Positions 11,044-38,300 of a stretch of DNA of 64,000 nucleotides are shown here, in pieces. Source of the DNA: Anaeromyxobacter diazotrophicus (GTDB taxonomy: Bacteria; Myxococcota; Myxococcia; Myxococcales; Anaeromyxobacteraceae); NCBI RefSeq assembly GCF_013340205.1, contig NZ_BJTG01000004.1:62001-126000 (forward strand). The letters run 5' to 3'. Each line of letters begins with the position of its first letter. Position 1 is the first letter of the stretch. A program made the translations under genes and the position numbers. The notes beneath the pieces were generated by a model, which saw only the letters and a list, made by a program, of their open reading frames with translations, had not been told where the DNA came from and ran no database searches.

Positions 11044-11964
11044 TCAGCGCCGGTCGGGCAGCCGCTCCTCCCCCGCCATGAGGAACAGGTTCACCCCGTG
11101 CCGCGCCCAGCCCTCCTCGGCCATGAGGAGGTCGAGGGCGAGCGTCGCGACGTCGTCGGCGAAGGGCTCGAGCGCCGGCGCCTGCTCGACGTAGAAGAGC
11201 TTCGTGTACGCCTTGCAGGCGGCGCAGGCCTCCGCCTTCACGTAGGCGGCGGGGAGCTTCGCCGCGGCCGCCTGCTCGGCGCCGAGCTGGTAGTAGGTGA
11301 GCCCCTTCCCCTCGTGGCAGGCCGTGCACTGGACGCGGGTGTGGTGCCACTGCGCGCCGCAGAGGCTGCAGACGAGGTAGCGGAGCTTGTCGTCGCCGAG
11401 CACGATCCCGACCACGGGCAGGGAGCCGCAGGCGGGGCAGCCGTCCCGCGTACGCGGCGCGGCGTCCGGGGTGAGCTGGGCGGCGAGCCCGGTGAAGTGG
11501 ACCTGGAGCGCCGCCGCCACGAAGGCGCCGGCGGCGAGGTCCGCCCCGGCCACCGCGTTCGCGAGCACGCGGTCGGCGAGCGCCTCCAGCTCCGGGGGCG
11601 GCAGCTCGGCGAGCAGCGCGAGCGCGGCCCGGCTCTCCCCCGGCACCTCGGCGGCGGAGAGCGCGTCGAGGACGACCTTCAGGGCCGCCAGCCACTCCGG
11701 CCCGCGCCGCAGGTTCGTCGCGTCGAGCGGGCGCTCCGGGGCGAGCGCGCGGGGCAGGGCGGGCGTGAGCGTGGCGGCCGCGACGCGCTGGGCCTCGGCC
11801 ACCCGACCCAGGAGCTCGAGGTACTCCGAGAGCGTGTGCCCGGGCGCGAGCGCGGCGAAGCGCTCGGCCCGGCGCCGGAAGAGCGCCTGCGCGTCGGGGA
11901 GGCGCAGGTGCGGGATGTCCGTGAGGCCGCCCGGGCCGGAGGGCGACTGCGGGTCGGCCGTCAC
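11044..11964 (-). CDS. fdhE: Formate dehydrogenase accessory protein FdhE
   Basis: A 306-residue cytoplasmic protein required for maturation of respiratory formate dehydrogenases. The C-terminal half carries the four Cys-pair rubredoxin-like metal site of FdhE: CPACGS, CSLCGA, CTACHE and CAACKAY, followed by the DLLMAEEGW segment. A GTG start at 11964 overlaps the stop of the upstream cytochrome b gene in a GTGA arrangement, so the two are translationally coupled. Being last of the fdnG-fdnH-fdnI-fdhE order matches known operons. The CTACH segment is not a haem site, because the protein has no export signal and sits inside the zinc-ribbon-like pattern. N-terminal residues are variable. Confidence 0.93.
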   Translation of the reverse strand: MTADPQSPSGPGGLTDIPHLRLPDAQALFRRRAERFAALAPGHTLSEYLELLGRVAEAQRVAAATLTPALPRALAPERPLDATNLRRGPEWLAALKVVLDALSAAEVPGESRAALALLAELPPPELEALADRVLANAVAGADLAAGAFVAAALQVHFTGLAAQLTPDAAPRTRDGCPACGSLPVVGIVLGDDKLRYLVCSLCGAQWHHTRVQCTACHEGKGLTYYQLGAEQAAAAKLPAAYVKAEACAACKAYTKLFYVEQAPALEPFADDVATLALDLLMAEEGWARHGVNLFLMAGEERLPDRR

Positions 11965-12638
11965 GGCTCCTTGCCCGTCATCTGCCGGTACCAGCCGGGG
12001 TAGTGCAGGCGCGCCCAGCCGCGCGTGACGGTGCCGCGCGTCATCGCCCGGAACGACCCCTTGGTCCAGAAGCCCGCGTAGACGTGGATGCCGATGCCCA
12101 CGAACATGATGAAGGCGCTGATCGCGTGCAGCACCGCCGCCGCCTTGCGCGTGGTGGCGGAGAACGCCGGCGCGAAGTAGGGCTGCCAGATGAGGACGCC
12201 GGTCGTCACCAGCACGGCGATGACGGCGACCATCGACCAGTACATGAGCTTCTGGCCGCCGTTGTACTTGCCGGTGTCCGGCGGGTTCTCGTACCGCTTG
12301 TTCATGTAGTCGAACGCGTGGCGGGTCCACCGCCAGTCCGTCGGCGTCATCAGGTTGTCGCGCCAGAGCTGCGCCGCGTACGGGTAGAAGAGCAGGGCGA
12401 GCGTCACGCCGAGGAACGGGTGCAGGATCCGCAGGAGCGGGCCGCCGCCGAAGAGCGCCGCCGTCCAGAAGAAGAAGGGGTGGAAGAGCGCCAGGCCCGA
12501 CAGGAAGAGGAAGATGTACGCGATGGCGACGCCCCAGTGGACGAGCCGCTCCCACTCCGGGTAGCGGCGGAGGAGCGGCTGCTCCTCGCCGTGACCGACA
12601 GCCGCTGGGGTCCGGAGGTCCTTCTCGGTGGTGGCCAT
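11961..12638 (-). CDS. fdnI: Formate dehydrogenase cytochrome b subunit (gamma)
   Basis: A 225-residue di-haem cytochrome b of the formate dehydrogenase-N/O type, which passes electrons from the FeS subunit to the quinone pool in the inner membrane. Four hydrophobic helices are visible, with His residues placed as haem b ligands: EWERLVHWGVA in the first helix, LRILHPFLG in the second, and VLHAISAF plus IGIHVYAGF in the last two. The N-terminus is cytoplasmic and the length matches the family (about 210-220). It sits directly after fdnH with a gap of one base and overlaps fdhE by four bases, so it belongs to one transcription unit. Confidence 0.93.
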   Translation of the reverse strand: MATTEKDLRTPAAVGHGEEQPLLRRYPEWERLVHWGVAIAYIFLFLSGLALFHPFFFWTAALFGGGPLLRILHPFLGVTLALLFYPYAAQLWRDNLMTPTDWRWTRHAFDYMNKRYENPPDTGKYNGGQKLMYWSMVAVIAVLVTTGVLIWQPYFAPAFSATTRKAAAVLHAISAFIMFVGIGIHVYAGFWTKGSFRAMTRGTVTRGWARLHYPGWYRQMTGKEP

Positions 12639-12639
12639 C

Positions 12640-13533
12640 TCAGGCCTCCTTCCGCGGCGGGCTCGGCGGCGCCGGAGGGTCGTCCTTCGGCTCCTCCAGC
12701 GGACCCACCTTCATGTAGTGGAAGACGCCCGCCACCACGACCGCGAACATGGTGAAGACGCCGAGCGAGCGCGACACCCAGCTCCGCCACACCGAGAGCA
12801 GCGGGCCGAGGTGCGGGTCCTTGGGCAGGCCGTACTTCTCGGGCTGGTCGCCGTGCGGCAGCACGAACACCACGTGCGTCCCGCCCACGCCCTGCGGGTC
12901 GTAGACGGCGGCCTTCGTGAACCCGCGCTCGCGCAGGTCGTCGAGGCGGTGCTCCGCCTGAGCGAGCATGTCCTCCTTCGACCCGAAGGAGAGCGCCTGC
13001 GTCGGGCAGGTCTTGATGCACGCCGGCTCGAGCCCCACCGAGACGCGGTCGGAGCAGAGCGTGCACTTGTAGGCCTTGTTGTCGTGCTTCGAGAGCCGCG
13101 GGATGTTGAACGGGCAGCCGGAGATGCAGTACCCGCAGCCGATGCAGTTCTCCTGGTGGAAGTCGACGAGGCCGTTCGTGAACTGCACGATGGCGCCCGG
13201 CGCCGGGCACGCCTTGAGACAGCCCGGCTCGGTGCAGTGGAGGCACCCGTCCTTCAGGATGAGCCACTGCAGCGAGCCCTCGATGTTCTCCTCGTAGAAC
13301 CGCATCAAGGTCCACGACTGGTCGGAGAGGTCCTTGGGGTTCGTGTAGAACCCCTCGTTCACCCCCACCTCGTCGCGGAGGTCGTTCCACTCCATGCAGG
13401 CCGACTGGCAGGCCTTGCAGCCGATGCAGCGGGACACGTCGATGAGCTTCGCGACCTCGAGGGTCTTGCGTGCCTGCGGCGAGGCGGTCGAGGTGGCGGA
13501 GCGGCGCTGGACGTCGAGCGACTGGAGAGCCAT
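12640..13533 (-). CDS. fdnH: Formate dehydrogenase iron-sulfur subunit (beta)
   Basis: A 297-residue ferredoxin-like electron-transfer subunit. Four [4Fe-4S] cysteine clusters are visible in order: CIGCKACQSAC, CLHCTEPGCLKAC, CIGCGYCISGCPF and CTLCSDR...CIKTC. A single transmembrane helix near residue 250 (FTMFAVVVAGVFHYM) anchors it, as in FdnH. It would carry electrons from the selenocysteine/molybdopterin subunit on the periplasmic side to the cytochrome b. The start ATG at 13533 lies 12 bases after the fdnG stop. The short Pro-rich C-terminal tail is variable in this family. Confidence 0.95.
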   Translation of the reverse strand: MALQSLDVQRRSATSTASPQARKTLEVAKLIDVSRCIGCKACQSACMEWNDLRDEVGVNEGFYTNPKDLSDQSWTLMRFYEENIEGSLQWLILKDGCLHCTEPGCLKACPAPGAIVQFTNGLVDFHQENCIGCGYCISGCPFNIPRLSKHDNKAYKCTLCSDRVSVGLEPACIKTCPTQALSFGSKEDMLAQAEHRLDDLRERGFTKAAVYDPQGVGGTHVVFVLPHGDQPEKYGLPKDPHLGPLLSVWRSWVSRSLGVFTMFAVVVAGVFHYMKVGPLEEPKDDPPAPPSPPRKEA

Positions 13534-13545
13534 GGCGTCGTCCCC

Positions 13546-16500
13546 CTAGGCCTTCCGGACGTCGACCAGGAACGCCTTGAACTCCGGCGTCTGGATGTTG
13601 GCGTCGCCCACGAACGGCGTGAGCGTGTTGACGAGGTAGCCCGGCTTCGTGAGCCCCTCGAAGCCCCAGTGCAAGGGGAGCCCGACCGTGTGGACCGGCT
13701 TCCCCTCGATGCTGAGCGGCTGGATGCGCTTCGTCACCACCGCCTTCGCGGTCAGCTCGCCGCGCTTCGAGCGCACCACCACCCGGTCGCCGTTGGCGAT
13801 GCCGCGCTCGCGCGCCAGCGCCTCCCCCAGCTCCACGAACTGCTCCGGCTGCAGCACCGCGCCGATGCGGGTGTGCTTGGTCCAGAAGTGGAAGTGCTCG
13901 GTGAGCCGGTAGGTGGTCCCGACGAACGGGAAGTCCTTGGCGGTGCCCATCCGCTCTCGATCGCCCTTGAAGAGGCGCGCGGCCGGGTTGGAGAGGCTCT
14001 TGCCGAAGGGGTTCTTGTCGAGCGGGGTCTCGAACGGCTCGTAGTGCTCGGGGAAGGGGCCCTCCGCCATCTTGTCGAGCGCGAAGAGCCGCCCCACGCC
14101 CTCGGGGTTCATGATGAAGGGCGAGAGGCCCTCGTCCGGCGCGGCGTCGGGCCGGTAGTCGGGCACGTCGACGCCGGTCCACTTCTTCCCGTTCCAGGAG
14201 ATGAGCTTCCGCTCCGGATCCCACGGCTTCCCGGACGGATCGCAGGAGGCGCGGTTGTAGAGGACGCGCCGGTTGGCCGGCCAGGACCAGGCCCAGCTCT
14301 GCGTCTGGCCCAGGCCGCTCGGGTCGGCCGGGTCGCGCCGCGCCATCTGGTTGCCCTTCTCGGTCCAGGAGCCGCAGAAGATCCAGCAGCCGGAGGCGGT
14401 GGTGCCGTCGTCCTTGAGCAGGCCGAACCCGGGGAGCAGCTCGCCCTCGCGCGCCAGGAACTGGCCCGGGTTCTTCGGATCGGGCTGGTCGGCGAGCGCG
14501 TAGCCGTTGAACTCCTTCGCCAGCTCCTCCGGCGACGGCGCCCGCGGCTGGCGGTAGGGCCAGGTCAGCTTCAGGATGGGATCCGGGAAGGCGCCGCCCT
14601 CCTTCTGGTAGAGCGCGCGCAGCTTCAGGAACAGCTCGCCCACGATCTCGGTGTCGTGCTTCGCCTCGCCCGGCGGCTCCGCCGCCTGCCAGTGCCACTG
14701 CAGCCAGCGGCCGCTGTTGACGAGCGAGCCCTCCTCCTCGGCGAAGCAGGTGGAGGGAAGCCGGAACACCTCGGTCTGGATCTTCCGCGGGTCGACGGCG
14801 TTGAGCGGGCCGTGATCCTTCCAGAAGGTGCTGGTCTCGGTGACGAGCGGATCGATGACCACCAGGTACTTGAGCTTCGAGAGCGCCTCGACGTTCTTGT
14901 TCTTGTCCGGCACCGAGGCGAGCGGGTTGAAGCCCTGGCAGAAGTAGCCCTCGAGCTTGCCCTGGTGCATGAGGTCGAAGGCGGTCAGGACGTCGTACGG
15001 CTTGTCGAGCTTGGGCAGGTAGTCGTACGCCCAGTCGTTCTCCTTCGTCGCCGCCGCGCCCCACCACGACTTCATGAGCGAGACGTGGAACTTGGGGTAG
15101 TTCTGCCAGTACGACATCTGGCCGGGGCGAAGCGGCTTCTGGATCCGCTTCTCCATGTACCCCTGGTACTTGTCCTCGGTGTCGCTCGGCAGGGTGAGGT
15201 AGCCGGGCAGCGACTGCGACAGGATGCCGATGTCGGTGAGGCCCTGGATGTTGGAGTGGCCGCGCAGCGCGTTCACGCCGCCGCCGATCATCCCCATGTT
15301 GCCGAGGAGCAGCTGCACGCAGGCGATGGCGCGGATGTTCTGAGAGCCCACCGAGTGCTGCGTCCAGCCGAGCGCGTAGAGGCTCGTCATGGTGCGGTTC
15401 GGCGCCGCGGTGCTGGCGATGACGTCGCAGATCTGCGCGAACTTCGCCTTCGGTACGCCGGTCACCCGCTCCACCAGCTCCGGGGTGTAGCGGGCGTAGT
15501 GCTTCTTCATGAGCTGGTAGACCGAGCGCGGGTGCTCGAGCGTCGGGTCGACCTTGGCGAACCCCTTCTCGTCGAGCTCGTACGACCAGCTCGACTTGTC
15601 GTACTTGCGCTTCTCGGCGTCGTAGCCGGAGAAGAGCCCGTCGTCGAAGCCGTAGTCGCCGCGGACGAGGAAAGGCGCGTTGGTGTAGCTCTTCACGTAC
15701 TCGCGCTGGATCTTGCCGGTCGAGAGCAGGTGGTTCACGAGCCCGCCCAGGAAGGCGATGTCGGTCCCGGGGCGGAGCTGCGCGAAGTGGTCGGCGACCG
15801 CGGCGGTGCGGGTGAAGCGTGGGTCGACGACGATGAGCCGCGCCCCCTTCTTCACCTTGGCCTCGATCACCCACTTGAAGCCGCAGGGGTGGGCCTCGGC
15901 GGGGTTGCCGCCCATCACCAGCACGACATCTGCGTTCTTGATGTCGGCCCAGTGGTTCGTCATCGCGCCACGGCCGAACGTGGGGGCCAGACCGGCCACC
16001 GTGGGGCCGTGTCAGACCCTGGCTTGGTTGTCGATGGCGGTCATGCCGAGCGACCGCAGGATCTTGTGGGTGAGGTAGCCGGACTCGTTGGAGGAGGCGC
16101 TGGCGGCCAGGAAGCCGACGGTGGTCCACCGGTTGACGGTGACGCCCTTCTCGTTCCGGGCGACGAAGTTCCGGTCGCGGTCGTCCTTCATGAGGCGCGC
16201 GATGCGGTCGAGCGCCCACTCCCAGGTGACCTTCTTCCACTCGGTCTCGCCGGGCCCGCGGTACTCGGGGTGCTTGAGCCGGTTCGGGCTGTGCACGAAG
16301 TCGAGCAGGGCGGCGCCCTTGGGGCAGAGGGTGCCCCGGTTCACCGGATGGTCCGGGTCCCCCTCGACGTGGACGATCTCGCTGCGGGCGTTCTTCGAGC
16401 GGTCGCCGAGCGTGTAGAGGATGACGCCGCAGCCCACCGAGCAGTAGGGGCAGGTGTTCCGCGTCTCCGAGGTGTGGGTCAGCTTGAACTGCCGCACCTC

Positions 16501-16599
16501 GGCCAGCGCCCGGGCGGGCGAGAAGCCGAGCGCCGTGAGGCTGGTCGCACCCACGCCGCCCGCGGCGTACTTCACGAACTGTCTACGCGTGATCTGCAT
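13546..16599 (-). CDS. fdnG: Selenocysteine-containing formate dehydrogenase catalytic subunit (alpha)
   Basis: A 1017-residue molybdopterin oxidoreductase that oxidises formate to CO2 in the periplasm. A UGA at 16012-16014 interrupts the frame at codon 196, exactly where Escherichia coli FdnG has Sec196; the residues around it (DNQARV, Sec, HGPTVAGLAPTFGRGAM) match that active site. The protein continues in frame to a stop at 13546 and the total length matches FdnG (1015). The N-terminus has a twin-arginine signal (ITRRQFVKY, Arg5-Arg6) and the [4Fe-4S] cysteines C50, C53, C57 and C92. Read conventionally it would be split into two open frames; this is recoding, not a pseudogene. Sec insertion needs selABCD, which are not in this window. 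Confidence 0.95.
15973..16014 (-). other. UGA selenocysteine codon and bacterial SECIS hairpin
   Basis: The UGA codon is at 16014-16012 on the minus strand. Immediately 3' of it lies a stem-loop whose core is GGCC, loop GGTCT, GGCC (15997-15985), about 14 bases after the UGA. A GGUCU apical loop closed by a GC stem is the hallmark recognised by SelB in the E. coli fdhF and fdnG SECIS elements. The first bases after the UGA (CACGGCCC) also match those genes. The element is inside the coding region, as expected for bacteria. Confidence 0.85.
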
Positions 16600-16792: not shown

Positions 16793-17560
16793 ATGGTCGA
16801 CGACACCCTGCTCGAGACGCGCCACCTCACGAAGGAGTTCGCCGGCTTCGTGGCGGTGAACGACGTGTCCCTGCGCGTCCGGCGCGGGACCATCCACGCG
16901 CTCATCGGGCCGAACGGCGCCGGGAAGACCACCGTCTTCAACCTCCTCACGCGCTTCCTGCCCGCGACCCACGGGCAGATCCTCTACCGCGGCGAGGACA
17001 TCACCCACGCCCGCCCGGCGGAGGTGGCGCGGCGCGGCCTGGTCCGCTCCTTCCAGATCTCGGCCGTCTTCCCCAACCTGACGGTGCTGGAGAACGTGCG
17101 GGTGGCGCTGCAGCGGAAGCTCGGCACCTCCTTCCACTTCTGGCAGAGCGAGCGCTCGCTGGACGCGCTCGACGAGCGCGCCACCGAGCTCCTCGCGCAG
17201 GTGGACCTGGCCTCGCACCGCGAGCTCCTGGCGGTGGAGCTGCCCTACGGCCGCAAGCGCGCGCTCGAGCTCGCCACCACGCTCGCGCTGGAGCCGGAGC
17301 TGCTCCTGCTCGACGAGCCGACGCAGGGGATGGGGCACGAGGACGTGGGGCGCGTCACCGCCCTCATCCAGCGGGTGGCGCGCGACCGGACCGTCCTCAT
17401 GGTCGAGCACAACCTCTCGGTGGTGGCGGACCTGTCCCACGTCATCACGGTGCTGGCGCGCGGGAGCGTCCTCGCCGAGGGGCCCTACGCCGACATCTCC
17501 CGCGACCGGCAGGTGCTCGAGGCCTACATCGGCTCGGCCGAGCCGGAGGCGGCGGTCTGA
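16793..17560 (+). CDS. livG: ABC transporter ATPase, LivG type
   Basis: A 255-residue nucleotide-binding subunit of a branched-chain amino-acid-type (HAAT) importer. Walker A is GPNGAGKTT, the signature is LPYGRKRALELA (the variant usual in LivG rather than LSGGQ), Walker B is LLLLDEPTQG, and the H-loop is VEHN. It would drive uptake with LivF, LivH, LivM and LivK. The ATG at 16793 is 27 bases after a strong AAGGAGG; an in-frame CTG at 16775 is better spaced from that site, so the true N-terminus may be six residues longer. The gene overlaps livF by one base (TGATG). Confidence 0.93.
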   Translation: MVDDTLLETRHLTKEFAGFVAVNDVSLRVRRGTIHALIGPNGAGKTTVFNLLTRFLPATHGQILYRGEDITHARPAEVARRGLVRSFQISAVFPNLTVLENVRVALQRKLGTSFHFWQSERSLDALDERATELLAQVDLASHRELLAVELPYGRKRALELATTLALEPELLLLDEPTQGMGHEDVGRVTALIQRVARDRTVLMVEHNLSVVADLSHVITVLARGSVLAEGPYADISRDRQVLEAYIGSAEPEAAV

Positions 17561-18285
17561 TGGCGAGCCCCCTCGCCGCCCCGCCGGTCGAGCTGCTCCG
17601 CGTCACGGATCTCCATGCGTTCTACGGTGAGTCGCACATCCTGCACGGGGTGGACTTCAGCGTGAACCAGGGCGAGCTGGTGACGCTGCTCGGCCGCAAC
17701 GGCTCCGGGCGCACCACCACCCTCAAGGCCATCCTCGGGCTCACCGGCCGCCGCACCGGCTCGGTCATGATGAACGGGCGCGAGACGGTCCACCTGCCGA
17801 CCCACCAGATCGTGCACCTCGGCATCGGCTACTGCCCGGAGGAGCGCGGCATCTTCTCGTCGCTCAGCGCCGAGGAGAACCTGATGCTCCTGCCCAAGGT
17901 GGGGGGCGGCGGGCTCTCCGTGGACGAGCTGTACGCCATGTTCCCGAACCTCCGGGAGCGGCGCCACAGCCAGGGCACGCGCCTCTCCGGCGGCGAGCAG
18001 CAGATGCTGGCGGTGGCGCGCATCCTGCGCGTCGGCGCGCGCCTGCTCCTGCTCGACGAGATCACCGAGGGCCTCGCCCCGGTCATCGTCCAGGCGCTCG
18101 GACGGGTGGTGCGCCAGCTCAAGGAGCGCGGCTTCACGATGGTGCTCGTGGAGCAGAACTTCCGCTTCGCCGCCCCCCTCGCCGACCGCCACTACGTGGT
18201 CGAGCACGGCCGCATCGTCGACATGGTCACCCAGCACGAGCTCGCTTCCAGCATGGAGAAGCTGCACCGCTACCTCGGCGTCTAG
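17560..18285 (+). CDS. livF: ABC transporter ATPase, LivF type, with arginine in Walker A
   Basis: A 241-residue second ATPase of the importer. The Walker A motif reads GRNGSGRTT: the invariant lysine is replaced by arginine at residue 51 (codon CGC at 17710-17712). Other sites are normal: signature LSGGEQQM, Walker B LLLLDEITEG, and VEQN at the H-loop, as common in LivF. Either this subfamily tolerates Arg, or this subunit binds ATP with lower activity and LivG supplies the working site. The start overlaps the livG stop by one base. A ribosome site is not obvious, consistent with coupled translation. Confidence 0.92.
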   Translation: MASPLAAPPVELLRVTDLHAFYGESHILHGVDFSVNQGELVTLLGRNGSGRTTTLKAILGLTGRRTGSVMMNGRETVHLPTHQIVHLGIGYCPEERGIFSSLSAEENLMLLPKVGGGGLSVDELYAMFPNLRERRHSQGTRLSGGEQQMLAVARILRVGARLLLLDEITEGLAPVIVQALGRVVRQLKERGFTMVLVEQNFRFAAPLADRHYVVEHGRIVDMVTQHELASSMEKLHRYLGV

Positions 18286-18310
18286 TCTCCCCCTCAACCC
18301 CGGAGGTCGC

Positions 18311-19540
18311 ATGAAGAAGACCGTCAGCATCGCGCTGCTCCTCGCGCTGGCCGCCCCGGCCGGCGTCCTCGCCCAAGGGAAGGGCATCTCGGACGGCGTC
18401 GTGAAGCTCGGCGTCCTCACCGACATGACCGGCTACTACTCCGACCTGGCCGGCCCCGGCTCGGTGCTCGCGGCGAAGATGGCCGTGGAGGACTTCGGCG
18501 GCAAGGTGGACGGCAAGCCGATCCAGGTCGTCTCGGCCGACCACCAGCTCAAGGCCGACGTCGCCTCGAACACCGCCCGCAAGTGGATCGACGAGCAGCA
18601 GGTGGACGCGCTGGTGGACCTCGTCTCCTCCTCCACCGCGCTCGCGGTGATGCCCATCGTGAACGAGAAGAAGCGCATCGCGCTCTTCTCCGGCCCGGGC
18701 ACCACCGCCATCACCGGCGACAAGTGCAACCCGTACACGGTCCACTACACCTACAACAACTGGGCGCTGGCCAACGGCACCGGCCGCGAGGTGGTGGAGC
18801 AGGGCGGCAAGAGCTGGTTCTTCATCACAGCCGACTACGCCTTCGGCAAGTCGCTCGAGGAGGACACCTCGGCCGTGGTGAAGGCGGCCGGCGGCAAGGT
18901 GCTCGGCTCGGTGCGCTTCCCGTCGCCCGGCACCACCGACTTCTCCTCGTACGTGCTGCAGGCGCAGAGCTCGGGCGCGCAGATCATCGGGCTCGCCAAC
19001 GCCGGCCAGGACACGGTGAACTCCATCAAGGCGGCCACCGAGTACGGGCTCACCAAGAGCCAGAAGCTGGCCGGCCTGCTCATCTTCATCTCCGACATCC
19101 ACAGCCTGGGGCTCCAGACGGCGCAGGGCCTCTACGCCACCACCGCCTTCTACTGGGACCACGACGACGCGAGCCGGAAGTGGGCCAAGCGCTTCCAGTC
19201 GCACCCGGACAACAAGAAGAAGGCGATGCCCACCATGGTGCAGGCCGGCGTGTACTCGTCGGTGCGGCACTACCTCGAGGCGGTCAAGGCGGCCCACACC
19301 GACGACGCCGACGCCGTGATGGCCAAGATGCGCGAGCTGCCGGTGAACGACTTCTTCGCCCAGAACGGCCGCATCGGCCCGGACGGCCTCCACCGCCACG
19401 ACATGTACCTGGTGCAGGTGAAGACGCCGAAGGAGTCGAAGGGCCCGTGGGACTACTACAAGATCCTGAAGACCATCCCGGCCTCGCAGGCGTTCCCGTC
19501 GGTCGAGGCGCAGAAGTGCCCGATCGCGGTGAAGAAGTAG
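18311..19540 (+). CDS. livK: ABC transporter periplasmic substrate-binding protein, LivK type
   Basis: A 409-residue type I periplasmic binding protein (Peripla_BP_6). The signal peptide MKKTVSIALLLALAAPAGVLA is followed by the family start VVKLGVLTDMTGYYSDLAG. The middle shows STALAVMPIVNEKK, GTTAITGDKCNPY and WFFITADYAFGKS motifs typical of LivK-like proteins with broad ligands. Ligand identity is not shown by sequence. It has a GGAGG ribosome site 7 bases before the ATG and is followed 25 bp later by livH. High expression is likely, because the binding protein has the best ribosome site in the operon. Confidence 0.93.
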   Translation: MKKTVSIALLLALAAPAGVLAQGKGISDGVVKLGVLTDMTGYYSDLAGPGSVLAAKMAVEDFGGKVDGKPIQVVSADHQLKADVASNTARKWIDEQQVDALVDLVSSSTALAVMPIVNEKKRIALFSGPGTTAITGDKCNPYTVHYTYNNWALANGTGREVVEQGGKSWFFITADYAFGKSLEEDTSAVVKAAGGKVLGSVRFPSPGTTDFSSYVLQAQSSGAQIIGLANAGQDTVNSIKAATEYGLTKSQKLAGLLIFISDIHSLGLQTAQGLYATTAFYWDHDDASRKWAKRFQSHPDNKKKAMPTMVQAGVYSSVRHYLEAVKAAHTDDADAVMAKMRELPVNDFFAQNGRIGPDGLHRHDMYLVQVKTPKESKGPWDYYKILKTIPASQAFPSVEAQKCPIAVKK

Positions 19541-19565
19541 GGCCGGGGAGCCGGGGAGGAGCCTC

Positions 19566-20429
19566 ATGCAAGCCCTGTTCGGCCAGCTCCTCCTCGGCCT
19601 CATCAACGGCTCGTTCTACGCGCTGCTGTCGCTCGGGCTGTCGATCATCTTCGGGCTGCTCAACGTCGTGAACTTCGCCCACGGCGCCCTCTACATGTCG
19701 GGCGCCATGGTGGCGTGGCTCCTCGCGCAGTACCTGGGGATCGGCTACTGGCCGGCGCTGCTCCTCGCGCCGGCGGTGGTGGGGCTGGTGGGCGTCGTCA
19801 TCGAGCGGACGATGCTGCGCCGCCTCTACCAGCTCGACAACCTGTACGGCCTGCTCTTCACCTTCGGGCTCACCCTGGTCATCGAGGGGCTCTTCCACGA
19901 GCAGTACGGCAACTCCGGCAACCCGTACCCCGTCCCGGAGGTGCTCCAGGGCGGGGTGCGGCTGCCGTTCATGTACCTGCCGGAGTACCGGGCCTGGGTG
20001 GTGGTGGTGGCGATGATCGTCTGCTTCGGCTCGTGGCTCGTCATCGAGCGCACCAAGCTCGGCAGCTACCTGCGCGCCGGCACCGAGAACCCGCGCCTCG
20101 TGCAGGCGTTCGGCATCAACGTGCCGCTCATGTTCACCATCACCTACGGGTTCGGCGTGGCGCTGGCCGCCTTCGCCGGGGTGATGGCGGCCCCCATCTA
20201 CCAGGTGTCTCCGGGCATGGGGTCGAACCTCATCATGGTGGTGTTCGCGGTGGTGGTCATCGGCGGGATGGGCTCGATCCTCGGCTCCATCCTCACCGGC
20301 GTGGGCCTCGGCGTGATCGAGGGGCTCACCCGCTACTTCTACCCGCCCGCCTCGTCGGTGGTGATCTTCGTCATCATGGCGCTGGTGCTGCTCGTGCGGC
20401 CGGCCGGGCTGTTCGGGAGGCAGAAGTGA
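19566..20429 (+). CDS. livH: ABC transporter permease, LivH type
   Basis: A 287-residue inner-membrane permease with about eight helices. The N-terminus LLLGLINGSFYALLSLGLSIIFGLLNVVNFAHGALYMSG carries the family pattern (shown here split: GLSIIFGLLNVVNFAHGAL), and a GGMGSILGSILTG segment marks the ATPase contact region. It would form the pore with LivM. The stop overlaps the livM GTG start by four bases (GTGA), so the two permeases are translated in a coupled way. A GGGAGGAGCCTC ribosome site lies just ahead. Confidence 0.92.
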   Translation: MQALFGQLLLGLINGSFYALLSLGLSIIFGLLNVVNFAHGALYMSGAMVAWLLAQYLGIGYWPALLLAPAVVGLVGVVIERTMLRRLYQLDNLYGLLFTFGLTLVIEGLFHEQYGNSGNPYPVPEVLQGGVRLPFMYLPEYRAWVVVVAMIVCFGSWLVIERTKLGSYLRAGTENPRLVQAFGINVPLMFTITYGFGVALAAFAGVMAAPIYQVSPGMGSNLIMVVFAVVVIGGMGSILGSILTGVGLGVIEGLTRYFYPPASSVVIFVIMALVLLVRPAGLFGRQK

Positions 20430-21391
20430 GCGAGGCGCTCAGGGCCGGCGCGAGCGTCGGGTGGCCGGTGGCGCGGGTCCGCGGCGCGTTCGCGGTCATG
20501 TTCGTGGCCGGGCTGGTGCTGCCGTTCTTCGTCTACCCGGTCTTCGTCATGAACGTGCTGTGCATGGCGCTCTTCGCCAGCGCGTTCAACCTGCTCCTCG
20601 GCTACTGCGGCCTGCTCTCCTTCGGGCACGCCGCCTTCCTCGGCGCGGCCGGCTACCTGTGCGCCCACGCGGTGAAGGACTGGGGGCTCCCGCCGGAGGT
20701 GGGGCTCCTGCTCGGCGTGCTGCTCTCGGCCGGCCTGGGCCTCGTCATCGGCGGCCTCGCCATCCGGCGCTCCGGCATCTACTTCGCCATGATCACGCTG
20801 GGGCTGGCGCAGGTGGTCTACTTCCTGGCGGTGCAGCTGCCCTTCACCGGCGGCGACGACGGCCTGCAGGGCGTCCCGCGCGGCAAGCTCCTGGGCCTCC
20901 TCTCGCTCGAGGGCCGCTACGCGATGTACTACTTCGTCTACGCCGTCTTCCTGGCCGGCTTCTTCGCCATCTACCGGGCCATCCACTCGCCGTTCGGCCA
21001 CGTGCTGCGCTCGATCCGCGAGAACGAGCCGCGCGCGCTCTCCCTCGGCTACGACGTCGACCGCTACAAGCTCATGGCCTTCGTGCTCTCGGCGGCGCTC
21101 GCCGGCCTGGCCGGCGCCACCAAGGCGCTCGTCTTCCAGTCCGAGACGCTCACCGACGTGCACTGGCACATGTCCGGCGAGGTGGTGCTCATGACGCTCC
21201 TCGGCGGCATGGGGACGGTCATGGGCCCCTCGGTCGGCGCGCTCATCGTGCTCGTCCTGCAGAACTACCTGTCCGGCTTCGGCTCGTGGGTCACCGTCAT
21301 CACCGGGCTCGTCTTCGTGGTGGGGGTGCTCGCGTTCCGCCGGGGCTTCGTGGGCGAGGCGATCGCGCTGGCGAAGAAGTTTCCGTTCTAG
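20426..21391 (+). CDS. livM: ABC transporter permease, LivM type
   Basis: A 321-residue permease partner of LivH. The GTG start at 20426 overlaps the livH stop. Ten hydrophobic segments are visible, with LLLGYCGLLSFGHAAFLGAAGY near residue 55 (only its core GLLSFGHAAFLG is diagnostic) and LLGGMGTVMGPSVGA in the C-terminal half, the loop that touches the ATPase. Residues before the first helix are short. It is followed 13 bases later by the SDR gene, which has its own good ribosome site. Confidence 0.92.
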   Translation: MSEALRAGASVGWPVARVRGAFAVMFVAGLVLPFFVYPVFVMNVLCMALFASAFNLLLGYCGLLSFGHAAFLGAAGYLCAHAVKDWGLPPEVGLLLGVLLSAGLGLVIGGLAIRRSGIYFAMITLGLAQVVYFLAVQLPFTGGDDGLQGVPRGKLLGLLSLEGRYAMYYFVYAVFLAGFFAIYRAIHSPFGHVLRSIRENEPRALSLGYDVDRYKLMAFVLSAALAGLAGATKALVFQSETLTDVHWHMSGEVVLMTLLGGMGTVMGPSVGALIVLVLQNYLSGFGSWVTVITGLVFVVGVLAFRRGFVGEAIALAKKFPF

Positions 21392-24704: not shown

Positions 24705-24819
24705 AACGGCGTGTCCCCCATTCGTGAAAAACTGCGGGCACACCAACTGGAGCTTTACGTCTCAGGACCGGACGGGGTCGATCCCCGGCTGGTCCGCGAC
24801 GTCACCTGGGAGCACCCCG

Positions 24820-27800
24820 ATGTCGCCTCGCTGCGCCTCGTCACTCGCGGTGCTCGCCGCCGCGGCCCTGGCCTGCGGGGCCCGGCCGGTGCGTTCCGGC
24901 TCGTCGGCGAGCGCCGCGCTCGCCACGTGCACGCAGTGCCACGGAGATCCCGCCCACGAGAACGCCGCGCCTCCCCGCGCCGTCAACGGCGCGACCGACA
25001 CGGCCGACCCGGCGGTGGGGGCCCACCAGAGCCACCTCGTCGCCGGGCACTTCCGCGGCCCGGTGGCCTGCCAGGAGTGCCACGCCGTGCCCGCCTCGGT
25101 GACCGAGCCGGGCCACCTGGGCGGCGGCGTGGCCGTGGTGCGCTTCGACGCGCCCGGATCGAGCGGCCTCGCGCGCGCCCGCGGGGTGGCGCCGTCCGTC
25201 GCCTTCGGCCCCGCCGACGCGGCCGACGCGCGGAGCCGGCCCGACGCCACCTGCACCGTCTACTGCCACGGCGTCACCCTCGATGGCGGTACGCGCACCC
25301 AGCCGAGCTGGGCCGGGCGCTACCAGGCCGGGAGCAGCACCCTCGACTGCTCGAGCTGCCACGGGTTCCCGCCCGGCGGGCGCCATCCCCAGGGGTTCGT
25401 CCGGACGCCGGACGCTCCGGCGGCCGCGTGCGCGCGCTGCCACTCGCGCACGGTGACCGCCGGGGGGGAGATCGATCTGGCAGGCGGCAAGCACCTGAAC
25501 GGCGTGGTGGACTTCGGGGGCGGCGAGGCCTGCTCCGCCTGCCACGGGGACGGGACGCGCGTCGCGGTCGCGGGCGCCGACCCGCTGGTCCGGGCCGCGC
25601 CGCCCGGGACGGTGACCGGCGCTGCGGCCGGCGCGCACCTCGCCCACGTGAACGGGGAGGGGACGCCGCTCCGGCCGCCGCTCGCCTGCGCCGAGTGCCA
25701 CGCGCGGAGCGCCGCCGAGGTCCAGGGCGAGCACCCGGACGAGAAGGTCGACGTGGACTTCGGGCCGCTGGCCGCCGGGCTGGGCGCGGCGCCGGCCTGG
25801 GACGCCGCCTCCGGCTCCTGCGCCGCCACCTACTGCCACGGGGCGACGCTCTCCGGCGGGAAGCACCCGGTCCCGCTCTGGAACGGCGGCAGCGCCGAGG
25901 CCGCCTGCGGCAACTGCCACGGCGTGCCGCCGCCGGCGCCTCACCCGCCGAACAGCTCCTGCGGCACCTGCCACCCCGGCTACACCTCGTCGTCGGTGAA
26001 CGCCGCCCTCCACGTCGACGGCAAGCTCGACGTGGCCGGGCTGACGTGCAGCTCCTGCCACGGGTCGGCGCTGAATCCCGCGCCGCCGGCCGGGACGCGC
26101 GGCGAGACGCTCACCACCGATCGCGCGGTGGGCGCGCACCAGGCGCACCTCTCCGGCGGCGGGGTGGCGCGCCCGGTCCTCTGCGAGGAGTGCCACGTCG
26201 TGCCATCCTCGCCCCTGCACGCCGACGGCGCGGCGAAGGTCACCTTCGGCGGCGTGGCCCTCACCGGCGGCGCGAAGCCCGCCTGGGATGGGACGAGCTG
26301 CACCGCGAGCTACTGCCACGGCCAGTTCACCGGCGGGAACGCCCTGAACGCCCCGGCCTGGACCGGGGGGAGCGGGCAGGCGGCGTGCGGCAGCTGCCAC
26401 ACCATCCCTCCGCCGTCGCCGCACCCGCAGAACAGCGCCTGCGGCGGCTGCCACACCGGCTACACCTCGTCGTCGGTCGTCGCCGCCACGCACGTCGACG
26501 GCAAGAACGACGTGGGCTCCATGACGTGCAGCTCGTGCCACGGCTCGGCGCAGAACCCCGCGCCGCCCTTCGGGACGCGCGGCGAGACGGCCACCACCGC
26601 GCTCGCGGTCGGGGCGCACCAGGCCCACCTCGCGGGCGGCACGGTGGGGAAGGCGGTCGCCTGCTCCGAGTGCCACGTGGTGCCGAGCTCGCTCACGCAC
26701 GCGGACGGCACCGTCCAACTCACCTTCGGCGCGCTCGCCACCCAGGGCGGCGCCCAGGCGAGCTTCGCCGTCGCGACCGCCACCTGCAGCAACGTGTACT
26801 GCCACGGTCAGTTCACCGGCGGGAACACCGCCAACGCGCCGGTCTGGACGACGGTGGACGGCTCGCAGGTGGCGTGCGGGAGCTGCCACACGCTGCCGCC
26901 CCCGCCGCCGCACCCCGTGAACACGAGCTGCGGCAACTGCCACCCGGGCTACGGGCCGGCGAGCGTGAACGTCGCGACCCACGTGGACGGCCACCTCGAC
27001 CTGCTCCCGATGACCTGCACCTCGTGCCACGGCGACGCGAGCCGCGTCCCGCTCGCCGGCGCCGACGCGAACGTCAAGGCCGCGCCGCCGGCCGACTCGC
27101 ACGGCAACCTGACGGCCTCCGCCCGCGGGGTCGGCGCCCACGCCGCGCACGTGAACCAGGCCACCTTCCGCTCGGCGCCGCTCGCCTGCTCCGACTGCCA
27201 CTCCAACGCCGTGCCGCCGCCCGGCGACACGGCGCACGTGAACGGCACCGTCGCGTTCGCGTTCGGCCCGCTGGCGAAGAACGCCACCTGGGGCGGCGTC
27301 ACGCCGGCGCCGACCTGGGACGGGACGAGCTGCGCCAGCACCTACTGCCACGGCGCCTTCAAGAACGGCGCGAACGCGACCATGACCTGGGCGCAGGACG
27401 TGACGCTCGGCTGCACCTCGTGCCACGGCGCGCCGCCCGGCGGCGGCCACCCGGCCAGCACCGCCTGCGGGAGCTGCCACGGGGCGGGCTACAGCGCGAC
27501 CACCGTCAACCCGGCGACGCACCTCGACGGCAAGCTCGACGTGAACGCGATGACCTGCACCTCGTGCCACGGCGACCCGACGCGCGTGCCCGTCGCGGGC
27601 GCGGACCCGACGAACGCGAAGGCGGGGCCGCCGGTGGACACCTCCGGCCAGACCTCGTCGACCGCGGTCGGCGGCCACCTGGCGCACTTCAACCGGGCGG
27701 TACTGACGTCGCCGCTCTGGTGCTCGGAGTGCCACACGGTGCCGACCTCGACCACCCATGCCACCGGGACGGTCGCGATGGCGTGGGGCGCCCGCGCGAC

Positions 27801-28239
27801 GGCGGGCAGCGGGGCGAGCTATGGGGCTGGGAATGGGACCGTCACGCCGGGCGGTGCGGCGGCCCCGGTCTGGAATGGCGGGGCTGCCTCCTGCTCGGCG
27901 ACGTACTGCCACGGGAACTACGCGGGGACCTTTACCTACAGCAATTGGGATTGGTCGCTCGACCAGCCGGGTGCGCCCATCGTCGTGAGCTACGCCGGGA
28001 AGGGCAGCGCGCCGGCATGGTCGGATGGGGCCATGGCCTGCGACTCGTGCCACGCCAACCCGCCGCGCACGGGGAGCTGGCACGGCGCCCATCAGGGCGG
28101 CAGCGCGTGCCAGGTCTGCCACCCCGACGCGATCGGGACCGACGCAGGCGTCGGCACGGGAATCACCAATCCGGCCCAGCACGTCAACGGTCAGATCGAG
28201 ATCAAGGGTTTCGGATCGACCTGCATCGGCTGCCATTGA
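24820..28239 (+). CDS. 31-haem-motif secreted cytochrome c (CxxCH/CxxxxCH family)
   Basis: A 1139-residue exported multihaem protein. The frame opens at 24679, but the ATG at 24820 has a GGGAG site and starts a signal with a lipobox-like end (AAALACGA), so a lipoprotein is likely. I count 25 CxxCH, five CxxxxCH (for example CAATYCH, CSNVYCH) and one CxxxCH (CTVYCH) motif. Repeats of about 110-150 residues carry VGAHQAHL, PVACSECH, TYCHG, CGNCHGVPPP and LHVDGK segments, as in the Geobacter-type C4xC/C2xCH families. The C-terminus is a WDWSLDQ...CDSCHANPPRTGSWH module that ends exactly in CIGCH. It would act as a periplasmic or outer-membrane electron carrier. Antiparallel long frames here are shadows. 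Confidence 0.9.
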   Translation: MSPRCASSLAVLAAAALACGARPVRSGSSASAALATCTQCHGDPAHENAAPPRAVNGATDTADPAVGAHQSHLVAGHFRGPVACQECHAVPASVTEPGHLGGGVAVVRFDAPGSSGLARARGVAPSVAFGPADAADARSRPDATCTVYCHGVTLDGGTRTQPSWAGRYQAGSSTLDCSSCHGFPPGGRHPQGFVRTPDAPAAACARCHSRTVTAGGEIDLAGGKHLNGVVDFGGGEACSACHGDGTRVAVAGADPLVRAAPPGTVTGAAAGAHLAHVNGEGTPLRPPLACAECHARSAAEVQGEHPDEKVDVDFGPLAAGLGAAPAWDAASGSCAATYCHGATLSGGKHPVPLWNGGSAEAACGNCHGVPPPAPHPPNSSCGTCHPGYTSSSVNAALHVDGKLDVAGLTCSSCHGSALNPAPPAGTRGETLTTDRAVGAHQAHLSGGGVARPVLCEECHVVPSSPLHADGAAKVTFGGVALTGGAKPAWDGTSCTASYCHGQFTGGNALNAPAWTGGSGQAACGSCHTIPPPSPHPQNSACGGCHTGYTSSSVVAATHVDGKNDVGSMTCSSCHGSAQNPAPPFGTRGETATTALAVGAHQAHLAGGTVGKAVACSECHVVPSSLTHADGTVQLTFGALATQGGAQASFAVATATCSNVYCHGQFTGGNTANAPVWTTVDGSQVACGSCHTLPPPPPHPVNTSCGNCHPGYGPASVNVATHVDGHLDLLPMTCTSCHGDASRVPLAGADANVKAAPPADSHGNLTASARGVGAHAAHVNQATFRSAPLACSDCHSNAVPPPGDTAHVNGTVAFAFGPLAKNATWGGVTPAPTWDGTSCASTYCHGAFKNGANATMTWAQDVTLGCTSCHGAPPGGGHPASTACGSCHGAGYSATTVNPATHLDGKLDVNAMTCTSCHGDPTRVPVAGADPTNAKAGPPVDTSGQTSSTAVGGHLAHFNRAVLTSPLWCSECHTVPTSTTHATGTVAMAWGARATAGSGASYGAGNGTVTPGGAAAPVWNGGAASCSATYCHGNYAGTFTYSNWDWSLDQPGAPIVVSYAGKGSAPAWSDGAMACDSCHANPPRTGSWHGAHQGGSACQVCHPDAIGTDAGVGTGITNPAQHVNGQIEIKGFGSTCIGCH

Positions 28240-28271
28240 GAGTGGCTCCGCGTCACCCCGCCGCGCGGCAT

Positions 28272-28290
28272 GGTGCCCCGCCGGGGTACC
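28272..28290 (+). terminator. Weak hairpin downstream of the 31-haem cytochrome gene
   Basis: GGTGCCCC and GGGGTACC can pair (one GU) around a short loop, 33 bases after the cytochrome stop and before pntAA. There is no T-tract, so intrinsic termination is doubtful. Confidence 0.25.
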
Positions 28291-28383
28291 CGGCTCCTCC
28301 TCGGAGTCCCGCGCGCACTTCTTCCGTGTTAACTGCCCTCGACCTCTCCTCCGCCTTCGAGCGCGAGGAGGTAGGGGGTGCGG

Positions 28384-29481
28384 ATGCGGATCGGAGTCCC
28401 ACGCGAGACCGCCGCCGGCGAGCGCCGGGTGGCGCTCGTCCCGGAGACGGTGGCGCGGCTCACGAAGGGTGGCCACGAGGTGGTGGTCGAGCGCGGCGCC
28501 GGCCAGGCCGCGGGCTTTCCGGACGCGCCGTACGCGGCGGCCGGGGCGCGCCTCGGCGACGCGGCGGAGGCGCTGGGCGCCGAGCTGGTGCTCAAGGTGC
28601 AGCGCCCGTCGCTCGAGGAGGCGGGCCGGCTGCGCGAGGGCGCGCTGCTCGTGTCCTTCCTCGCGCCGGCCTCGAGCGCCGGGGCCCTCGCGGCGCTCGC
28701 CGCGCGCAAGGTGACCGCCCTCGCCATGGAGCTCGTGCCGCGCATCACGCGGGCCCAGGCGATGGACGCGCTCAGCTCGCAGGCGAACCTGGCCGGCTAC
28801 AAGGCGGTCGTCATCGGCGCGGAGGCGCTGAACCGCATCCTGCCCATGATGACCACCGCCGCCGGCACGCTCGCGCCGGCGCGCTGCTTCGTGCTCGGGG
28901 CGGGCGTGGCGGGGCTGCAGGCCATCGCCACCGCGCGGCGGCTCGGCGCCGTGGTCTCCGCCTTCGACGTGCGGCCGGTGGTGAAGGAGCAGGTGCAGTC
29001 GCTCGGGGCCACCTTCGTCGAGGTGGCGGTCCAGGCGGAGGGGCAGGGCGGCTACGCGAAGGAGCTCGCCGAGGACCAGCAGCGACGCGTGACCGAGGCG
29101 GTGGCGAAGCACCTCGTCTCCCAGGACCTCGTCGTCACCACCGCCCAGATCCCCGGCCGGCCGGCGCCGCGGCTCATCTCGGCCGAGATGGTGCGCGCGA
29201 TGAAGCCGGGCGCGGTCATCGTGGACCTCGCCGCCGAGAGCGGCGGGAACTGCGAGCTGACGCGGGCCGGCGAGGCGGTGGACGTCGGTGGGGTGCTCGT
29301 GCTCGGGCCGGTGAACGTGCCCTCCACGCTCGCCTTCCACGCCAGCCAGACCTACAGCAGGAACCTCCAGGCGCTGCTCGGGCACCTCCTCGACAAGGAG
29401 GGGAAGCCGAAGCTCGACCTCCAGGACGAGATCACGGGGGCGATGGTGGTGACGCACGCCGGGGAGATCCGGAAGAAGTGA
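28384..29481 (+). CDS. pntAA: NAD(P) transhydrogenase subunit alpha 1
   Basis: A 365-residue cytoplasmic NAD(H)-binding subunit (dI) of the proton-translocating transhydrogenase that reduces NADP with NADH. The start MRIGVPRE is typical; an in-frame GTG at 28378 is also possible, since the GAGGAGG site at 28365-28371 is better spaced from it. The NAD site is VLGAGVAGLQAI with downstream SAFDVRP, and the RQD-loop region (EDQQRR) and GPVNVPSTLAFHASQ near the end are conserved. The alpha chain is split here into two genes, as in many bacteria, unlike the single E. coli PntA. It is followed by the membrane piece. Confidence 0.95.
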   Translation: MRIGVPRETAAGERRVALVPETVARLTKGGHEVVVERGAGQAAGFPDAPYAAAGARLGDAAEALGAELVLKVQRPSLEEAGRLREGALLVSFLAPASSAGALAALAARKVTALAMELVPRITRAQAMDALSSQANLAGYKAVVIGAEALNRILPMMTTAAGTLAPARCFVLGAGVAGLQAIATARRLGAVVSAFDVRPVVKEQVQSLGATFVEVAVQAEGQGGYAKELAEDQQRRVTEAVAKHLVSQDLVVTTAQIPGRPAPRLISAEMVRAMKPGAVIVDLAAESGGNCELTRAGEAVDVGGVLVLGPVNVPSTLAFHASQTYSRNLQALLGHLLDKEGKPKLDLQDEITGAMVVTHAGEIRKK

Positions 29482-29512
29482 GCGCGCGGCGCGCCGCCTC
29501 CAGGGAGAAGCG

Positions 29513-29824
29513 ATGCACGGAACGTCACTGATCGAGCTCTACGTCTTCGTCCTGGCCGGCTTCGTCGGGTTCCAGGTCATCACCAAGGTCCCGGCGCTGC
29601 TGCACACGCCGCTCATGAGCGCCACCAACGCCATCAGCGCCATCTCGCTCGTCGGCTCGCTGGTGGCGGCCGGCTCGGACCAGAACCGAGTCGCCACCTG
29701 GCTCGGCTTCGTCGCGGTGACCGCCGCCACCATCAACGTGGTGGGCGGGTTCCTCATCACCGACCGCATGCTGAAGATGTTCCGCCACGCGGAGAAGCCG
29801 AAGGCGAAGGAGGTGAAGGCGTGA
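29513..29824 (+). CDS. pntAB: NAD(P) transhydrogenase subunit alpha 2 (membrane part)
   Basis: A 103-residue protein with three transmembrane helices that corresponds to the C-terminal membrane segment of a fused PntA. Visible segments are ELYVFVLAGFVGFQVITKVP, TPLMSATNAISAISLVGS and VNVVGGFLITDRML-like helix endings (INVVGGFLITDRMLKMF). It helps form the proton channel with PntB. A GGGAGAAGCG site precedes the ATG at 29513, and its stop overlaps the pntB GTG start by four bases. Confidence 0.95.
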   Translation: MHGTSLIELYVFVLAGFVGFQVITKVPALLHTPLMSATNAISAISLVGSLVAAGSDQNRVATWLGFVAVTAATINVVGGFLITDRMLKMFRHAEKPKAKEVKA

Positions 29825-35169: not shown

Positions 35170-35296
35170 CACCGCCGCGCGCACCCCGGTCCCCGCCGGG
35201 CGCGCCCCTCCCGCGACCCGCGGGATCAAGGAAAGCCCGTGTGGGCATTGAGTTGAATTGTCGCACCCTCGGTGAGAGGGCGCCCGCTTGGCGGCC

Positions 35297-35312
35297 TGGG
35301 ACCTACCTTGCC
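35297..35312 (+). promoter_or_regulatory. Sigma-54 (-24/-12) promoter of the 62-haem cytochrome gene
   Basis: TGGGACCTACCTTGCC matches the RpoN consensus TGGCACG-N4-TTGCW with the invariant GG and GC separated by ten bases. It predicts a transcript start near 35323, 28 bases before the ATG, leaving room for the GGAGG ribosome site. Confidence 0.65.
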
Positions 35313-35350
35313 TCCAACGTGCGTTGAGTGTGCGGCAGGAGGGGGACGCG

Positions 35351-38300
35351 ATGGCTCGATCGACGGTGGGTGCGGTCGCGGCGGCGGCGGCGCTGGCCGT
35401 GCTGGCCGCCGGGTGCGGGAACAGCCGGTCGCCTCGCAAGTCCGGCTCGCCCAACGCCACCGAGACCTGCATCCGCTGCCACGGCGGCGGCGACAACCAG
35501 ACCGGCGCGCCGCCGGTGAGCGTCGCCGGCCGGCACGAGACGACGTTCCCGGGCGTGGGCGCCCACACCGCGCACGTCACCGCGGGCGCGCTCGCCGGCG
35601 CCTACGACTGCGCGCAGTGCCACCCGGACCCGCGGTCGGGCTCCCAGGTCCACCGCGACGGCAAGGTCGAGCTCGCCTTCGGCGCGCTCGCCACCGCGAG
35701 CGGGAAGCTCGCGCCCGCGCTCGACCCGACCACCCATCGCTGCAGCAACGTCTACTGCCACGGGGCCACGCTCGGCGGCGGCACCGGCACCTCGCCCGAC
35801 TGGACCCAGGTCGGCCAGGGCGAGGCGGCCTGCGGGACCTGCCACGGCGTCCCGCCGCCCGCGCCGCACCCCGCGGTTCCGGAGGGCGTCGCCGGGTGCC
35901 AGGCCTGCCACGCCACCACCGTGGACGCGTCCGGCGCGATCCTCTCGCCGGACGCGGGGGGGCAGCACGTGAACGGGCAGGTGGACTTCGGCCACCCGGC
36001 GGCGTTCACGGATCCGGCGAGCAGCGGGTTCCACGCGCTCAGCGCCGACCGCGGCCTCGCCACCTGCCAGGCGTGCCACGGGGCGGCGCTCGACGGCGGG
36101 ATCGCCGCCGTCGCCTGCGCGAGCTGCCACGGCGCGAGCTGGCGGACGAGCTGCACCATGTGCCACGGCGGCGGCGACAACGCCACCGGCGCGCCGCCCA
36201 AGGCGCTCTGGGGCTACGCCGGCGATCCGCGGCGGGGCGGCGGCGCAGCCGACCTCCTGCGGGTCGGCGCGCACACCGCCCACCTGGCGGGCAGCGCGGC
36301 GGCCCCGCCGTTCGACTGCGGCGTCTGCCACGTGAAGCCGGCCGACGCGCTCTCGCCCGGGCACGTGGACGCGGTCGCCGCGGGCGCGACCCCGCGCGCC
36401 ACCGTCGCCTTCGTGGGCATCGCCGCCCAGGGCACGGTGCCGGTCTGGGACCGGGCGACCGGGACCTGCAGCGGGACCTACTGCCACGGCGGCACGCTCG
36501 CCGGAGGCACCCGCACCTCGCCCGCCTGGGCCGGCGTCTCCGGCCAGGCGGAGTGCGGCACCTGTCACGGCCTGCCGCCGCCGGCGCCGCACCCGACCGT
36601 GCGCGCCAGCGGCACGGTGGCGTGCAACGGCTGCCACGCGCTGACCGTCGACGCCTCGGGCCAGCTCATCCCGCCCGCCGCCGGCGGCAAGCACCTCGAC
36701 GGCCAGGTCGAGGCGACGAGCCCGCACGAGGCGTCCTGGATGGATCGCGCGAGCTCCAACTTCCACGCCTTCACGGCCGACCGCGACGTCGCCTCGTGCA
36801 CCGCCTGCCACGGGACGGGCCTCGAGGGCGGCGTCGGCCCGCCCTGCGCCGACTGCCACCGCGCCGGCGGCAGCGCGCCCGACTTCGCCGGCTGCACCGG
36901 CTGTCACGGCGGCGTCGACAGCGCCACCGGGGCGCCGCCCCGCGCCATCTGGGGCAGCGACGCCGACCCGGCGCGCGGCGGCGGGTCTCCCGCCGAGCGC
37001 GCCACCCGCGTCGGCGCGCACACCGTCCACGTGGCGGGCAGCGCCCTCGCGCCCGCCTTCGACTGCGGCGCCTGCCACCTGACGCCCTCCGGCATCCTCT
37101 CGACGGGCCACCTGGACGGCCCGACCGCCACCCTCGCGTTCGGCGCGCTCGCCACGACCGGCGGCGCGAAGCCGGGCTGGGACCGCGCGGGCGCGCGCTG
37201 CGCCGGCACCTACTGCCACGGCGCGACGCTCTCCGGCGGCACGAACACCTCGCCCACCTGGAGCCGCCTCGACGGCACGCAGGCCGCCTGCGGCACCTGC
37301 CACGGCCTGCCGCCGCTCGCGCCGCACCCGGCGGTCGCGGGCGGCGCGCCCGCCTGCCACGGCTGTCACGCGCAGACGGTGGACGCGGCCGGCGCCGTCA
37401 TCCCGCCGTCCGCCGGGGGCAAGCACCTCGACGGCCTGCCCGAGGGCGGGCACCCGGGGAGCTGGATGGACCAGGCGAGCCCCGACTTCCACGCCTTCCA
37501 CGCCAACGCCGGCCTCGCCACCTGCCAGGGCTGCCACGGCGCCCGGCTCGATGGCGGCCTCGCCGGCGTCGCCTGCGCCACCTGCCACGGCGCGAGCTGG
37601 GCGACCACCTGCACCATGTGCCACGGCGGGCGGGACAACACGACCGGCGCGCCGCCCGACTCGATCTGGGGCACCGGCGTCCCGAACCGCGGCGGCGGCA
37701 CGCTCGACCCGATCCGCGTCGGCGCGCACACCATCCACGTCACCGGCGGCGCCGTCGCGCCTCCCTTCGACTGCGGCGTCTGCCACCTGAAGCCGGCCGA
37801 CGCCTTCGCGGCCGGCCACCTCGACGGCCCGACCGCCACCGTCACCTTCGGCGGCCTGGCGGTGCAGGGGGTGGGGCAGGGCGTGAGCTGGGATCGCGGC
37901 AGCGCCACCTGCTCCAGCACCTACTGCCACGGCGCCTTCCCGGGCGGGAACGCCTCGAACGCGCCGGTGTGGACCGGCGGGGCGGCGCAGGGGGCGTGCG
38001 GCACCTGCCACGGCCTGCCTCCCGCGGCGCCGCACCCGGCGATCACCGGCGGCCTCACCTCCTGCAACCCGTGCCACCCGGCCACCATCGACGCGAAGGG
38101 GGTCCTCGTGCCGCCGGCGAGCGGCGGCAAGCACCTCGACGGCTTCGTCGAGTTCACGGGTGGTCACGACGCCTCGTGGATGGACCAGGGGAGCAGCGGG
38201 TTCCACGCCTTCAGTGCCGACCGCGGCCTCTCCTCCTGCCAGTTCTGCCACGGCGCGAACCTCGACGGCATCGGCGGCTCGACCAGCGTCGGCTGCCGCG

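Follow-up and report, generated by a model that had tools for sequence, protein, structure and literature searches.

A formate dehydrogenase gene with an in-frame UGA and a SECIS hairpin in Anaeromyxobacter diazotrophicus, and the selenocysteine machinery of its genome

The locus described here raises the question of whether a UGA, lying within the gene for the catalytic subunit of a formate dehydrogenase, ends translation or is decoded as selenocysteine (Sec). The gene is found in a stretch of 64,000 nucleotides of A. diazotrophicus, hereafter the window, where two minus-strand ORFs, one running from 16599 to 16012 (195 amino acids, ending in TGA) and the other from 15999 to 13546 (817 amino acids), share one frame. 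An earlier note on this DNA had described a catalytic subunit split by a UGA at codon 196, and this is indeed what is observed: between limits that had been correctly placed, and to which we add the strand, the gene numbers 1017 codons, the UGA being its sole interruption. All features are collected in Table 1.

Table 1. Features of the formate dehydrogenase locus, in window coordinates
Feature	Position	Strand	Remarks
fdnG/fdhA-type formate dehydrogenase catalytic (alpha) subunit, predicted Sec196	13546..16599	minus	1017 aa; TIGR01553, 1kqf_A
In-frame UGA, codon 196, motif UHGP	16012..16014	minus	Sec column of 1kqf_A
Bacterial SECIS element, loop GGUCU at 15989-15993, stem GGCC/GGCC	15959..16017	minus	Rfam RF01989, covariation
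fdhH, iron-sulfur beta subunit	12640..13533	minus	TIGR01582, 421.1 bits (cut-off 334.7)
fdhI, cytochrome b556 gamma subunit	11961..12638	minus	TIGR01583, 164.7 bits (cut-off 115.85)
fdhE, formate dehydrogenase accessory protein, start codon uncertain	11044..11973	minus	TIGR01562, 208.8 bits (cut-off 187.65)

When the UGA is translated as a residue, a product with U at position 196 is obtained, which matches TIGR01553 with 1540 bits (cut-off 814.2) over residues 2-1016, that is, over its full length, and aligns with E. coli FdnG (chain 1kqf_A) over residues 1-1017 with 1594.5 bits. In this alignment U196, entered as C in the query, falls opposite the X of 1kqf_A, which we take to be Sec, so that the claimed coincidence of the UGA with the Sec position of E. 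coli FdnG holds. The N-terminus (TRRQFVK) is presumably of the Tat type, as judged by eye against the Tat consensus. The UGA opens a UHGP motif, in agreement with the motif UHxP given for FdhA in a 2026 review (PMC13188914). The further expectation that an automatic annotation would report two broken genes proved too strong: E. coli fdnG stands in RefSeq as a single, whole CDS.

A hairpin with a GGUCU loop had been noticed just after the UGA, and it can be assigned to a known family. A search of the entire 64-kb window matched the whole 59-position model of Rfam SECIS_3 (RF01989) at this site with 82.7 bits, above the gathering score of 63 (E = 4.3e-18), and this is the sole match in the window to pass an Rfam gathering score. 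The loop occupies bases 22-26, counting from the U of the UGA, and is flanked by GGCC on either side; compared with the model, one pair is non-standard. Folding energy is unremarkable for the composition of the region (z = -1.11, with 27 of 200 shuffled sequences folding equally well), and the element could therefore not be called from energy alone; the minimum-energy fold of 56 nt is unlike the SECIS fold.

What is decisive for the identity of the element is the pairing of its apical stem. In 82 distinct stretches from relatives all four pairs are formed throughout (328 of 328 cells), as against 43-192 of 328 when the stem is slid by one to three bases. One of the pairs swaps between CG (43 stretches) and AU (39), the swaps falling, in the 103 closer homologues, on the third bases of the Ala202 and Leu204 codons without altering either residue; silent sites were counted in these homologues, out of 112, the nine with less than 60% identity having been left out. 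A windowed test of silent-site conservation offered only three eligible windows, and codons were compared singly instead: third-base entropy at codons 200, 201 and 205 is below that of all 228 comparable codons outside the hairpin, and 5 out of 20000 draws reached the mean found over the 12 hairpin codons. In the drawn structure the lower stem is unevenly kept, one of its pairs, for example, forming in 35 of the 82 stretches.

The reading of the UGA as Sec had been taken to imply that the organism must possess the corresponding machinery, and to depend in particular on selC and selB. The genome (4.83 Mb in 17 contigs, estimated to be 100% complete) encodes the full set. A tRNA-Sec gene, selC, with anticodon tca (UCA), scores 76.3 bits and lies on the same contig as the window, outside it, no tRNA gene having been found across the whole window; a second match above the cut-off in the tRNA-Sec search (49.7 bits) is a tRNA-Ser, set apart by its anticodon. 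Matches were likewise obtained for selB (337.3 bits), selA (523.4 bits, in a single frame) and selD (395.2 bits; contig C2, L019:1480-1698). As selD carries an in-frame UGA at codon 18, within the motif SHGAG-U-ACK, its product is probably itself a selenoprotein.

Machinery and enzyme were also followed across 146 genomes of relatives, that of the window included, 74 of which have a formate dehydrogenase match at E <= 1e-100, with a TGA within a match row in 36 of them. selA is found in 73 of the 74, the exception being a genome 61% complete, and 16 of the 17 genomes lacking selA have no such formate dehydrogenase match. Among the 36 genomes with a TGA row, 35 have selA and 29 have selB (E <= 1e-60), the remaining seven being drafts split into 160 to 790 contigs.

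The genome of the window has two more formate dehydrogenase genes (L025 on contig C10 and L026 on contig C6), with about 40% identity to the one described here. Both have TGA at the Sec codon, which brings the UGA-containing formate dehydrogenases of the genome to three, and a SECIS_3-like stretch is found at the UGA of each: one of these passes the Rfam cut-off, and the other two, with 51.8 and 35.8 bits, do not. The element of the window features GGUCU on GGCC/GGCC, and those of the two further genes feature GGUCU on CCCC/GGGG and AGUUU on CCCC/GGGG. As their stems differ in sequence, recognition by SelB may not depend on it. SelB of this lineage may accept [A/G]GU[C/U]U apical loops on unlike stems, recognizing the loop G-U and the stem geometry, a view for and against which we hold the chances to be about equal.

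The UGA, which formally splits the reading frame, might instead be a true stop, produced by a nonsense mutation or by a sequencing error, and the gene a pseudogene. Against this stands the conservation of the codon among relatives. Out of 118 loci examined, all except L031 could be aligned over residue 196, and of these 117, 112 have TGA and 5 have TGC; the latter, distant molybdopterin-type matches from the same genome with 25-31% identity, for which the column is unreliable, were left out. Every one of the 112 formate dehydrogenase homologues read thus carries TGA, in a partly redundant set (the same gene may come from two collections) that contains 82 distinct 59-base stretches. The set includes the named loci taken from GTDB genomes, which are the 80 best among 595 relatives and have TGA in 80 of 80 cases; the closest named cultured relatives belong to Anaeromyxobacter, and the nearest of the records bearing that name show 71-74% protein identity. 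Many order-level relatives seemed to contain formate dehydrogenases free of UGA, their rows starting near residue 350; for the six such regions that were re-aligned (L145-L150), the appearance was due to partial matches, as alignment of the whole gene revealed TGA at the Sec column in 6 of 6 paralogues. No stop other than the UGA occurs in the 103 homologues with at least 60% identity. With the UGA conserved across relatives, and with a SECIS and the Sec machinery present, we reject both the pseudogene and the sequencing error, whose probability we regard as negligible.

It is also conceivable that the UGA is read through by some route other than SECIS-directed Sec insertion, such as misincorporation of cysteine or near-cognate readthrough. 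Side routes are on record for E. coli, where selective, selC-independent incorporation of selenocysteine into formate dehydrogenases is the subject of PMC3636253. Against such a route stand, here, the complete selA, selB, selC and selD set and the silent substitutions that preserve pairing in the apical stem; we consider it very improbable, if a shade less so than a true stop.

Almost certainly, the gene encodes a formate dehydrogenase of the respiratory Fdh-N/Fdh-O type known from E. coli, and its UGA196 is decoded as Sec through the SECIS. SelB, carrying Sec-tRNA(Sec), would bind the hairpin just downstream of the UGA in the mRNA and deliver Sec at codon 196 in place of termination. By analogy with characterized members of the family, Sec196 would be a ligand of the active-site molybdenum or tungsten, the enzyme would be exported by Tat and oxidize formate outside the cytoplasmic membrane, and electrons would pass through the iron-sulfur subunit and cytochrome b556 to the quinone pool.

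The genomic context is that of an fdhG-fdhH-fdhI-fdhE operon, with the beta and gamma subunits expected for the TIGR01553 type. Divergently from it, at 16793-21391 on the plus strand, lie ORFs which by eye resemble a branched-chain amino acid ABC transporter set (two ATPases, a binding protein and two permeases). Elsewhere in the window, at 35288-41806 (plus strand), an ORF of 2172 amino acids, which contains 53 haem-binding CxxCH motifs and whose N-terminus (LAVLAAGCG) resembles that of a lipoprotein, is a candidate giant multihaem cytochrome c; the ORFs of similar length that overlap it in two other frames lack CxxCH motifs and Pfam matches alike. Long overlapping ORFs on both strands at 24711-29531 (1606 and 1538 amino acids) have no Pfam match either.

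Taken as a whole, the observation is real and had been correctly read: a stop codon spotted by eye was rightly taken as selenocysteine, in a genome which has the whole decoding set. It is already known in kind, close relatives included, and adds one more clean example of the most widespread bacterial selenoprotein family, and no new principle. The system resembles E. coli FdnGHI/FdoGHI (1kqf) in its full-length alignment, in the predicted Sec at position 196 and in the SECIS placed right after the UGA; at the DNA level identity is about 67%, and the SECIS shares 46 of 59 bases with the E. coli copy inspected, the loop being GGUCU in the window and AGUCU in that copy. The gene order is that of the annotated E. 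coli fdo region (fdnG-fdoH-fdoI-fdhE in RefSeq), whereas fdhD, which adjoins the operon there, is found in A. diazotrophicus on a different contig (170.5 bits). Another close parallel comes from a different species, A. dehalogenans: in a 2006 report (PMC1794560), where FdhA and SelD are given as the most widespread selenoproteins, those of A. dehalogenans include FdhA (3) and SelD, and the genome of A. diazotrophicus, with three formate dehydrogenase genes that contain a UGA and a selD that does so too, equals the counts listed there.
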